Part shown: piece after piece, positions 1,794 to 4,481 of the stretch | Position numbering within the stretch: position 1 is the stretch's first letter | Layout of the letters: each line of letters opens with the position of its first letter | From: Rhodococcus triatomae BKS 15-14 | GTDB taxonomy: Bacteria > Actinomycetota > Actinomycetes > Mycobacteriales > Mycobacteriaceae | Reading direction: 5' to 3' | Assembly: GCA_000341795.1 (NCBI GenBank) | Contig: AODO01000014.1 | Coordinates: 1 to 64,000, forward strand | Length of the DNA stretch: 64,000 nt | Program-made: the position numbers and the translations under genes | Notes under the pieces: model-generated | What the model saw: only the letters and a program-made list of their open reading frames with translations | What the model was told of the DNA's origin: nothing | Databases searched by the model: none

Positions 1794-2351
1794 GTGGACG
1801 TGGATGACCGGGAGCGCGACGACCGCGGCCGGCCGCGCAACGCGAGGCCGAGAGACGGATTGGGGCGACCCCTGCCGCGTGGTGCAGCGGGTGTCGCGCG
1901 GGCACCGGAAGGGCTGGTGCGAACGCCTGCCGACACGGTCGCCGAGGCTCAGCGGCTACTCGATGCCGAGATGCCCTTCCATGCGCACGAGGTCTTCGAG
2001 GATGCGTGGAAGTCGGCTGTCGAGGACGAGCGACTCTTGTGGCAGGGGCTTGCCCAGCTCGCGGTCGGTCTCACGCATCTGCGCCGCGGCAACATCGCGG
2101 GCGCGCGCAAACTCTTTCCGCGTGGAGCGGATCGCATCCGCCCGTATGCGACGCAGTCCCCGCACGGACTCGACGTGGCCGGGATCGTCGGGTGGGCGGA
2201 GGAGGCCGCTGAGGGCCTGGACGACCCCGAGCTACACGTCGCCGCACCACGCCTGACACGAACGAACACGGACGAGCCACGGGATCGGCGTGCGACGGGC
2301 GGCGCGGGCGAAGGGGTCGAGGACGGGAACCGCACGGGGGGTTCCGCGTAG
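1794..2351 (+). CDS. DUF309 domain-containing protein
   Basis: A 185-aa protein. Residues about 48-130 are a DUF309 domain, a small all-helical fold of unknown biochemical role. The diagnostic motifs are FHAHEVFEDAWK (about 62-73) and LLWQGLAQLAVGLTHLRRGN (about 80-99). An Arg/Asp-rich low-complexity leader of about 40 residues and a similar tail flank the domain. The GTG at 1794 is the first start in frame, but a later one could be used because the leader is not conserved-looking. The gene stands alone, divergent from the SRPBCC gene. The family call is firm; function is unknown. Confidence 0.8.
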   Translation: MDVDDRERDDRGRPRNARPRDGLGRPLPRGAAGVARAPEGLVRTPADTVAEAQRLLDAEMPFHAHEVFEDAWKSAVEDERLLWQGLAQLAVGLTHLRRGNIAGARKLFPRGADRIRPYATQSPHGLDVAGIVGWAEEAAEGLDDPELHVAAPRLTRTNTDEPRDRRATGGAGEGVEDGNRTGGSA

Positions 2352-2448
2352 CCGGCCGCCGCCCTGGAAGGGGGGTGCGGCCGCGCTGCTCACAGAGGAG
2401 GATCCGGGCGGGTCGAGGCGGTCACCGCGGAACCGCCGGGACGGTGTG

Positions 2449-2505
2449 CCGTGACGTCCGCCGGTCGAGTGGACACCGTCACCGCATCCTTGCCGGACGT
2501 CACGG
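2449..2505. terminator. 12-bp inverted repeat with a large loop
   Basis: CCGTGACGTCCG (2449-2460) and CGGACGTCACGG (2494-2505) form a perfect 12-bp inverted repeat around a 33-nt spacer. It begins 12 nt past the stop of the first small-peptide gene on the minus strand. A long stem just beyond a stop suggests a terminator or mRNA-stabilising hairpin. The large loop is odd for a simple terminator. Each arm also contains the palindrome GACGTC. Confidence 0.45.
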
Positions 2506-2516
2506 CCCGGAAACCG

Positions 2517-2672
2517 TCAGAGCGGCTGGATGCCGCCGCCCAGAGTCCAGGAGCTGCCGACGTCCGGAGTGCTGAAGCCGATGTCGGGGGTGCTGCTGCC
2601 GACGTCCGCGGTCGGCTGCACGGCGAGCAGCTGACCGAGAAGATCGCCGAGAATGGTCGAGATCGATCCCAT
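2517..2672 (-). CDS. Small peptide, 51 aa, Gly/Ser-rich tail
   Basis: Short gene encoding a 51-residue peptide that starts MGSISTILGDLLGQLLAV and continues with a Gly/Ser/Pro/Asp-rich tail. The tail holds the near-repeat TADVGSSTPD-IGF-STPDVGSS. CAGGAGTGATTC precedes the ATG, a good ribosome site with 7-nt spacing. There is no signal peptide, lipobox or Cys. The N-terminal 20 residues can form an amphipathic helix. It is the last of four tandem short genes, beyond a hairpin that follows the 33-aa gene, so it may have its own promoter. By size, leaderless start and Ser-rich end it recalls the PorA/PorH channel peptides of Corynebacterium, but I see no direct sequence match. Function unknown. 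Confidence 0.6.
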   Translation of the reverse strand: MGSISTILGDLLGQLLAVQPTADVGSSTPDIGFSTPDVGSSWTLGGGIQPL

Positions 2673-2837
2673 GAATCACTCCTGAGGTGTGGTGTGTGTC
2701 GATCCCCGGGCTCGGGGCCTGACTGTTCTACCCCATGTCCGTTCTCTCTCGGGCTGGAATGGGCTCCGCGGTCGGGACGGTCACCGCCGTTCCGGACTTG
2801 GCGCTCAACGCATTACGCGCCCGGCCTCGAACGCGAA

Positions 2838-2865
2838 GAGGCCACCGGGCTGAGCCGGTGGCCTC
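2838..2865 (-). terminator. Intrinsic-type hairpin after the 33-aa peptide gene
   Basis: GAGGCCACCGG (2838-2848) and CCGGTGGCCTC (2855-2865) form a perfect 11-bp stem with a 6-nt loop. It lies 20 nt past the stop of the 33-aa peptide gene on the minus strand, and TTCG follows in that direction. It probably separates this gene from the next small-peptide gene. Confidence 0.75.
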
Positions 2866-2885
2866 TCCACGTCCAGGTCGAGAAG

Positions 2886-2987
2886 TTAGCTCGAACCGCT
2901 GTCGTCGGATCCACTGGAAATGCTGTTGAGGGCATCGAAGACGGTGGACAGTCCGTCGAAGAGATCCGCGAGGTCAGACGAAAGCAT
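2886..2987 (-). CDS. Small peptide, 33 aa, acidic amphipathic helix
   Basis: Short gene for a 33-residue peptide: an acidic amphipathic helix MLSSDLADLFDGLSTVFDAL followed by a Ser/Gly/Asp tail ending SDDSGSS. It is preceded by CCAGGAGCTCCC and an ATG, a strong ribosome site. The pattern of regularly spaced Leu/Phe with Asp, a Ser-Ser C-terminus and no signal peptide resembles corynebacterial PorH. PorH and PorA reach the outer mycolate membrane without a signal peptide and carry a mycolate ester on Ser. That comparison is inference. A hairpin follows the stop, and a 140-nt gap with its own AT-rich stretch precedes the gene, suggesting separate expression. Confidence 0.6.
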   Translation of the reverse strand: MLSSDLADLFDGLSTVFDALNSISSGSDDSGSS

Positions 2988-3105
2988 GGGAGCTCCTGGT
3001 TTGCCAGAGGGTGGGTACGGCGTGTACGCCGGGCGGCGTTATCGGTATTTGTACACGACGTGATCTGGCTGTGACCACGTTTTTCCGGTGAACGTCTGGT
3101 TGCGT

Positions 3106-3122
3106 GCCGGCTTGTGGCCGGC
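3106..3122 (-). terminator. Hairpin after the 44-aa peptide gene
   Basis: GCCGGC-TTGTG-GCCGGC forms a 6-bp all-GC stem just past the stop codon (3128) of the 44-aa peptide gene on the minus strand. No T-run follows. It is a plausible weak terminator that would split the small-peptide cluster into units. Confidence 0.4.
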
Positions 3123-3127
3123 GGCGA

Positions 3128-3262
3128 TCAGCTGTCGAAGGACACCGAGCCGAGGCCGACGCTGCTGCCGGGGAACGGATCGACGATGATCTCGATCGGG
3201 GTTCCCGGCGGGAGGATCGCGGCCAGCAGTTCGGCGATGCTGGGAATCTGGGGCAGTGCCAT
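3128..3262 (-). CDS. Small peptide, 44 aa, hydrophobic
   Basis: Short gene for a 44-residue peptide beginning MALPQIPSIAELLAAILPPG and ending with a Gly/Ser/Val stretch (PGSSVGLGSVSFDS). AAGGAGAACG precedes the ATG. It lacks Cys and charged clusters and has no cleavable signal. The middle (TPIEIIVDPFPGSS) is beta-like. It shares the GSSxGLG-type Gly/Ser element with the upstream 40-aa peptide, 46 nt away, and the two are probably co-transcribed. The family was not recognised. A membrane- or envelope-associated peptide is the working guess. Confidence 0.55.
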   Translation of the reverse strand: MALPQIPSIAELLAAILPPGTPIEIIVDPFPGSSVGLGSVSFDS

Positions 3263-3308
3263 CGTTCTCCTTGGGTTGTGGTGGGTGTCGGTGGGCTACC
3301 GAATCGGG

Positions 3309-3431
3309 TCAGCTACCGAGACCGATGTTGAGACCGGGCAATCCGAGGCTGCTACCGACCGTCGCATCGGAGCTGCCGAGCGTGATCGGATTGGCGAGCA
3401 GATCGAGAAACGCGACGAGCAGATCGAGCAT
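3309..3431 (-). CDS. Small peptide, 40 aa, hydrophobic helix plus Gly/Ser tail
   Basis: First of four tandem short genes on this strand, encoding 40 residues. A strongly hydrophobic helix (MLDLLVAFLDLLANPITLG) is followed by a Gly/Ser/Leu tail (SSDATVGSS, then GLPGLNIGLGS). CAGGAGTGCGTG precedes the ATG. The frame stays open upstream as far as 3611, but that extension is Arg/Cys-rich and has no ribosome site, so the short form is preferred. The VGSS motif recurs in the 51-aa peptide of the cluster, suggesting common ancestry. No signal peptide. Function unknown; compare PorA/PorH-like mycomembrane peptides. Confidence 0.55.
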   Translation of the reverse strand: MLDLLVAFLDLLANPITLGSSDATVGSSLGLPGLNIGLGS

Positions 3432-3604: not shown

Positions 3605-3627
3605 CAATCATTCGTGATTGCTTTTTT
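3605..3627 (+). promoter_or_regulatory. AT-rich inverted repeat with T-run
   Basis: CAATCA-TTCG-TGATTG (3605-3620) is a perfect 6-bp inverted repeat followed by CTTTTTT. It lies in the gap between the leftward peptide cluster and the rightward acyl-CoA operon and is strikingly AT-rich for this genome. It could be an operator or promoter element, or a small terminator on the plus strand. Nothing is known to be transcribed into it from the left. Confidence 0.35.
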
Positions 3628-3689: not shown

Positions 3690-4481
3690 ATGGCCGAGTT
3701 ACGCGAAGTGATTGCCGATCTTGTGGCCGAGGGTGCGGCCGTCGACGGACTCGTCGCCGATCTGTCCGACGAGCAATGGCACGCGGGTACCGCTTCGGCG
3801 GGCTGGACCATCGCGCACCAGATCGGCCATCTGGCCTGGACGGACCGGGCGGCGCTGCTGTCGGTCGAGGACCCGCAGGGGTTCGCCGACTCCCTCACGG
3901 AGGCATGGCGCAATCCCACAGGATTCGTCGACGAGGCCGCGGAGGTGGAGGCACGGACGCCGCCCCCCGAACTGCTGTCACGCTGGCGTGCCGGCCGGGC
4001 CGCGCTCGCCGACGCGCTGCTCGCCGTGCCGGCAGGCACGAAACTGCCCTGGTACGGCCCCCCGATGAGCCCGATGTCGATGGCAACGGCCCGCCTGATG
4101 GAGACCTGGGCGCACGGCCAGGACGTCGCCGCCGCAGTGGGTGCGCAGCTCGCACCGACCTCGCGACTGCGGTCGATCGCGCATCTCGGAGTCCGAACCC
4201 GGGACTTCGCCTACTCCGTCAACGAACTGTCCCCACCCGACCAGGAGTTCCGTGTGGAGCTCACCGGCCCCGACGGAGACAGCTGGGCATGGGGTCCCGC
4301 AGATGCCGCACAACGCGTCACCGGACCCGCCCTGGACTTCTGTCTCCTCGTCACCCAGCGGGCACATCGCGACGACCTCGCCCTCACCACGGTCGGAGCG
4401 GAGGCCGCGCACTGGTTGACCATCGCCCAGGCGTTCGCCGGTCCTCCCGGCGCAGGCCGCGACCGAAAGGACGACGCGTGA
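3690..4481 (+). CDS. TIGR03084 family metal-binding protein (DinB/MDMPI-like)
   Basis: A 263-aa protein of the actinobacterial TIGR03084 family, related to mycothiol-dependent maleylpyruvate isomerase and the DinB four-helix fold. Metal-ligand-type histidines occur in [15 protein letters not shown] (about residues 38-52) and [14 protein letters not shown] (about 137-150). I chose the ATG at 3690 because AAGGGG precedes it; upstream codons in frame are not family-like. Its stop overlaps the AtuA-family start by 4 nt (GTGA), so it opens the acyl-CoA operon by translational coupling. A mycothiol-linked role in that pathway is possible but unproven. Confidence 0.85.

Follow-up and report, generated by a model that had tools for sequence, protein, structure and literature searches.

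The 64-kb window, by which we mean the whole stretch of DNA analysed here, contains a tandem array of four unannotated genes (D, C, B and A) for leaderless micro-peptides, which are real and conserved, gene C being the least supported. Profile comparisons appear to place at least one of them, gene B, in a widespread, little-noticed family of helical peptides that lack a signal sequence and are related to the outer-membrane pore peptides of Corynebacterium. We consider it rather likely that the four genes form an array for leaderless mycomembrane micro-peptides, a rhodococcal counterpart of the Corynebacterium porH/porA arrays, and they make promising candidates for lipid-anchored pores, or else anchors, in the outer membrane of rhodococci. 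Almost all work on PorA/PorH-type porins and on protein O-mycoloylation has been done in Corynebacterium, and ORFs this short easily escape gene callers. The array and its flanks are laid out as follows.

3690..4481, plus strand: MDMPI/DinB-type gene, flank outside the array and synteny anchor (Pfam MDMPI_N, 1e-31)
3309..3431, minus strand: gene D, first of the array, 40 aa, MLDLLVAFLDLLANPITLGSSDATVGSSLGLPGLNIGLGS, Shine-Dalgarno (SD) sequence AGGAG
3128..3262, minus strand: gene C, 44 aa, MALPQIPSIAELLAAILPPGTPIEIIVDPFPGSSVGLGSVSFDS, SD AAGGAG, the weakest of the four
2886..2987, minus strand: gene B, 33 aa, MLSSDLADLFDGLSTVFDALNSISSGSDDSGSS, SD AGGAG, the conserved and probably PorA/PorH-related member
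2517..2672, minus strand: gene A, 51 aa, MGSISTILGDLLGQLLAVQPTADVGSSTPDIGFSTPDVGSSWTLGGGIQPL, SD AGGAG, with synonymous bias
1794..2351, plus strand: DUF309 gene, opposite flank, outside the array (Pfam DUF309, 7e-22)

All four ORFs start with ATG, 4-6 nt past an AGGAG or AAGGAG sequence, which confirms the four minus-strand ORFs of 51, 33, 44 and 40 codons, each with an SD and ATG, that the sequence-only reading had proposed at these coordinates. The genes are transcribed in the order D, C, B, A, with spacers of 46, 140 and 213 bp. For gene D, a GTG in the same frame precedes the ATG by one codon, and a longer ORF (ATG at 3611) also exists; the SD supports 3431. The peptides contain no Lys, Arg, His, Cys or Tyr, as had been noted earlier for Cys, and all are acidic with a net charge of -3 to -6. 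The GSS element, which had been ascribed to three peptides, is present in all four, the C-terminus of B being ...DSGSS, and A, C and D have a GSS/VGSS tail in common. None of the four matches Pfam at E values up to 10, and hence none matches PF09203 (MspA).

When ORFs are filtered strictly for a length of 25-60 aa, a GGAG-type SD and no more than 5% R/C/H/W/Y, the window gives exactly A, B, C and D and the reversed window gives none; in 209 kb of syntenic DNA from other genera, two scattered ORFs pass. The genus was sampled with six species, including the window species, Rhodococcus sp. RD6.2, R. spelaei and R. tukisamuensis. Congener loci were located by synteny via the flanking MDMPI/DinB-type gene, which is present in 112 of 121 family genomes; this was more productive than a DNA search of the congeners, which gave fragments only. 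Three or more filter ORFs within 1.2 kb are found in all five congeners, versus none of 55 syntenic loci in other genera. In each congener, the number of matching ORFs is three or four, and location, strand and array order are kept. Genes A and D have counterparts in 5/5 congeners, and the last two residues of D are GS in each of the six species. Gene C has a counterpart by position only in RD6.2 (56 aa, GTG start, different sequence). DNA matches to gene C in two further genomes were dropped, the one in G004 C16 (L006) because no micro-ORF is present there, and the one in G001 C25 (L004) as well.

The codon changes in A, B and D are biased toward synonymous ones, supporting their coding nature. 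Across nine sister-species gene pairs of A, B and D, 197 residues are identical versus 146 expected if substitutions were scattered at random, a number that random-scatter simulations did not approach (maximum 166 in 2000 runs), and the differences per codon position are 105/81/126. The protein-based gapped alignments make this test somewhat generous, and gene B is the clean case: between the window and RD6.2 its alignment is nearly gap-free, with 24/32 residues identical versus 16.0 expected and differences of 7/4/13. Pooled pN/pS values of 0.78 (A) and 0.93 (D) indicate fast divergence. The sequence-only reading had staked the genes on conservation of the frames and on synonymous bias; with the test now run, the frames prove to be kept in the congeners, and the bias is found for A, B and D. 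Gene C, backed by its SD, its composition and its positional counterpart in RD6.2, and thus by two species, is the weakest case.

Folding of the array reveals two hairpins at gene ends.

2820..2882, minus strand: terminator-like hairpin directly 3' of gene B (dG -48.6, z -7.4)
2442..2516, minus strand: possible hairpin 3' of gene A (dG -36.7, z only -1.8 in the window)

A hairpin follows B directly in 6/6 species (dG -42 to -49, z -4.9 to -8.1), and its stem sequences are unrelated in the more distant species, indicating that the structure is conserved rather than the sequence. Downstream of A, hairpin strength is lower and differs from species to species (z -1.3 to -4.8); gene D has no hairpin. 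This layout, inferred from folding, points to D-(C)-B and A as separate transcription units. A promoter/terminator scan of the array gave no match; the hairpins emerged from folding and have no T tract, and that of B is unusually strong despite the missing tract.

Gene B carries the link to known peptides. AlphaFold2 predicts a single helix at residues 2-26 (mean pLDDT 84.5) followed by a flexible Ser/Gly tail, and the helix is amphipathic (permutation p 0.0006). An alignment of the first four sequences has 13 invariant columns. The C-terminus of B is GSS, SSK or SSE in 4/6 species, and the window peptide has a penultimate Ser. A first profile found B in all congeners, with second copies in two, and single SD-preceded relatives in three more genera; the extended profile matches 66 of 401 genomes in nine genera (E up to 0.01), with an SD-preceded micro-ORF at the match position in most loci inspected. 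The commonest type in the family resembles MDLSFLSEFFGAFSDLFGALDFFSGSA, and a profile of this widespread type matches 78 of 301 genomes. Weak matches of the B profile inside long frames, several near E 0.1, were taken as chance, and a PDB search with the profile gave chance matches only.

In genus g4 (genomes of 3.1-3.9 Mb), B-related arrays of two to six genes lie directly downstream of groEL. Because profile iteration can drift, the sets were compared by hhalign, with column shuffles and reversal as checks. The B set aligns with the widespread set at 94.5% (score 35.4; best of 100 column shuffles 17.1), and the widespread set with the groEL-linked set at 96% (score 42.4; best shuffle 13.2). 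The direct comparison of the B set with the groEL-linked set is weak, at just 19% (score 19.1; shuffles 15.5, reversed set 17.5), so the homology goes through iteratively found intermediates. Some of the similarity of B to other short amphipathic helices, which are alike in composition, may be convergent. The two g4 arrays examined are followed by genes for secreted enzymes that, among solved structures, are closest to Cmt1/MytC by a wide margin (2e-59 and 2.6e-51 to Cmt1, versus 1.5e-26 and 2.4e-24 to Ag85A). Cmt1/MytC is needed for the mycoloylation of PorA, PorH and ProtX (PMC5310785, PMC11066868).

The sole NCBIfam match of B is PorACj (NF038022; E 0.048, 13.7 bits versus a cut-off of 28). 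Where relatives of B match NCBIfam, the model hit is mostly PorACj or porH_2, with sub-threshold scores as for B, and the PorACj model also scores on the groEL-linked g4 arrays, again below the cut-off; one g4 peptide has an additional, chance-level match to a secretion protein. Ten shuffled or reversed copies gave no NCBIfam match, and C. glutamicum PorA and PorH, included as a control, were recognised by their own models. A, C and D have no NCBIfam match. A profile of D found nothing convincing outside the genus, to which D is restricted in our sample; its predicted helix spans only residues 2-13, the remainder being disordered (pLDDT 62). In genus g14, a 90-aa leaderless helical protein (L131 1333-1605, minus strand) scores 23 bits with the PorACj model, and the sampled genome of this genus has no MspA match.

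These results suggest that B would work like the PorA/PorH/PorACj group, with which it probably shares a distant ancestry. The earlier proposal of a rhodococcal PorA/PorH counterpart gains ground for B, through the profile chain to groEL-linked, Cmt1-flanked arrays and the sub-cut-off PorACj match, and finds no family match for A, C and D, which could be called counterparts by their size, leaderlessness, composition, tandem arrangement and GSS tails. The size (about 37-60 aa) and leaderlessness of A, C and D are those of the PorA/PorH/PorACj family, and B, with 33 aa and its helix at 2-26, has the amphipathic helix as well. The porin genes of Corynebacterium, which have no presequences, are situated between groEL2 and ppk2 (PMC5944148), and the groEL-linked B relatives of g4 occupy this type of locus. 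The window array is not located at groEL2-ppk2, and B falls below the curated cut-off, so we do not file it as PorA or PorH.

B is most like PorACj and PorACur, the single-peptide channels of C. jeikeium and C. urealyticum, which are leaderless, 37-40 aa long and form one amphipathic helix; unlike them, the window array lies away from groEL2-ppk2 and holds up to four different peptides. PorH and PorA of C. glutamicum (NF033938, NF033925) are leaderless, helical and encoded in tandem, as are the window peptides, and B relatives match porH_2 weakly, but they are 45-57 aa long, form a pair rather than a set of four, and are similar to B via intermediates only. Pore formation and O-mycoloylation, demonstrated for PorH/PorA, are proposed for the window peptides. 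The MspA-type porins of Rhodococcus (PF09203; PorARc, PorARr) are mycomembrane channels in the same organism group (PMC9233653), but with about 200 aa, a Sec signal and a beta-barrel they are unrelated to the window peptides.

The window genome encodes Cmt1-type enzymes, candidates for carrying out the modification. The Cmt1-type protein at C32:52517 scores 257 bits to Cmt1 versus 114 to Ag85A. No mycoloyltransferase gene lies beside the window array. MytC orthologues are reported in Rhodococcus, Gordonia and Nocardia (PMC5310785), and we found no small MytC substrates from these genera in the open-access literature. In the five congeners, a Cmt1-type gene lies about 0.4-0.6 kb after groEL, an adjacency that presumably also holds in the window genome, where both genes are at contig ends. 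No filter-passing peptide is encoded between groEL and the Cmt1-type gene in the congeners, nor at the groEL loci of the genus. In R. spelaei, genes for the leaderless peptides MGSLEGIIGAIIPGLGSMIAADGLFKVFMGSVDGSVNTPPA and MGSITDVLGPLVTSANGAGTKVINALITLSGGTPAPK (L267 967-1311, plus strand) lie directly upstream of Cmt1-type genes, and a leaderless micro-peptide pair likewise precedes Cmt1-type genes in a second congener, G002 (L261 2652-2997, minus strand). These pairs, of the MGS... type (also L257 2741-2989, plus strand), are absent before the tandem mycoloyltransferase genes of the window species and RD6.2.

In the window species and in RD6.2, MspA is represented by a single divergent homologue each, of 113-117 bits (G000:C10:241113-241658, L166, and G003:C5:496427-496972, L165, respectively), versus 10-19 MspA matches of up to 156 bits in the four other congeners, so canonical MspA porins were apparently lost in these two species. 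The two species with few MspA matches are also the two that carry gene C; since they are sisters, this coincidence counts as one evolutionary event and is no test of correlation. We rejected the idea that losing MspA predicts the peptides in general, because many MspA-bearing genera have single B-like genes.

We infer export, mycoloylation, membrane insertion, channel activity and partnership among A-D as follows. The peptides would be made without a Sec signal and would cross the plasma membrane via the same route as PorA, PorH and ProtX, a route that is unknown for PorA/PorH in Corynebacterium (PMC12632848). Cmt1/MytC-type enzymes would then add mycolic acid to Ser residues of the flexible tails, and the peptides would insert into the outer mycolate membrane. 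B would be the core helical peptide, its helices oligomerising into a pore or a wall-linked complex, and D, C and A, with a short helix and GSS tails, would be companions aiding it. O-mycoloylation of the peptides is likely by analogy: reported sites lie in flexible Ser/Gly/Ala stretches with no strict motif (PMC11066868), the ProtX site is the penultimate Ser37 (PMC5310785), and PorH Ser56 of 57 residues is likewise penultimate. The penultimate or terminal Ser of the B and D tails agrees with these sites, which is agreement and not proof, the tails being Ser-rich. An AlphaFold2-predicted pore of five PorA and five PorH has its lipidated Ser residues forming a belt (PMC12632848). That the window peptides are mycomembrane peptides of the PorA/PorH kind is probable, with about two chances in three. 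Counting against this reading are the B score, half of the curated cut-off for PorACj, the weak direct alignment of B with the groEL-linked set, the array position away from groEL and from any mycoloyltransferase gene, the lack of matches for A, C and D, and the known use of MspA-type porins by Rhodococci (PMC9233653).

The peptides could instead be structural parts of the mycomembrane, mycoloylated and wall-linked and forming no pores, as ProtX-like anchors; this differs from the mycomembrane-array reading in the last step only, and we regard it as plausible, though clearly short of an even chance. ProtX (cg2875) of C. glutamicum is tiny and leaderless, with a mycoloylated penultimate Ser and linkage to the wall (PMC5310785, PMC12632848), and window B, likened to it by description, has a penultimate Ser. 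PorH and ProtX are both cell-wall-linked (PMC12632848), Ser-rich tails whose last or second-last residue is Ser are similar to the penultimate ProtX and PorH sites (PMC5310785), the helices of A, C and D seem too short to span a membrane (for D from prediction), and genera rich in MspA porins also retain single B-like genes. B, however, has a predicted 25-residue amphipathic helix of the channel type and most resembles PorACj. Between pore and structural anchor we see about even odds.

The size, tandem layout, leaderlessness and amphipathic helix would also suit secreted surfactant or antimicrobial peptides, such as leaderless bacteriocins or phenol-soluble-modulin-like peptides. We consider this improbable: A-D contain no Lys or Arg and have net charges of -3 to -6, although some such peptides are not cationic, the neighbours examined include neither an ABC exporter nor an immunity-like gene, and the peptides have no Pfam match. 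Moreover, the array position is kept throughout the genus, and B relatives adjoin groEL and Cmt1-type genes. Small regulatory peptides of the cytoplasm or inner membrane, and type I toxins, are likewise short and hydrophobic, but the window peptides have no positively charged flank and a hydrophilic Ser/Gly tail, and the family is linked to groEL and Cmt1-type loci, which makes this origin slightly less credible again. Chance ORFs or parts of a structured RNA, to which the shortness of each ORF and the fast divergence of A and D might point, deserve almost no weight, as the array kept in six species, the filter enrichment, the codon bias and the hairpins at gene ends refute this for A, B and D, with C resting on two species.

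Returning to the mycomembrane-array reading, the window locus and its relatives provide a specific set of candidate substrates from no fewer than nine genera, many of these organisms being growable and transformable. For the open question of how signal-less peptides pass the plasma membrane (PMC12632848), the wide, divergent B family offers comparative material. More speculatively, leaderless O-mycoloylated micro-peptides may form a large, mostly unannotated superfamily across mycolate-bearing actinobacteria, and in the window clade, with canonical MspA lost, the four-gene array might supply the main mycomembrane pores or anchors; we put this forward tentatively and think it somewhat unlikely as a whole.

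Further B-like genes were observed elsewhere. The window genome has two more B-family micro-ORFs, MDLSYLSEFFGAFSDAFSALDFFSG (GTG start; C18, L203 3405-3482, minus strand) and MGSSEIASIVTAVATILTVVEKLSTASSAGEESAPATLSVQ (C53, L204 3403-3528, minus strand). In genus g10 and in four congeners, a B-like micro-peptide such as MGSAEFISFFEFVTDFADAAGDLFAALSFFAGSLETVSGILPA is encoded about 9 kb from the MDMPI-type flanking gene (L231-L238, L240-L242, L243); no such peptide was found in the window at 11.5-17 kb, nor in RD6.2. Genus g6 has a two-gene set, MGSAAVFINDIISGVFDGLVDSIVDQIVGVLTSGSAA and MGSAELAGLFGLLAKLFGAASGSSDTPPA, that is kept in several genomes (L124 3354-3773, minus strand; L185, L188-L190). 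In genus g23, a lone B-like gene lies near the gene for a secreted protein with an OmpA domain (L182 715-1242, minus strand; L206; L222), another link to the envelope.
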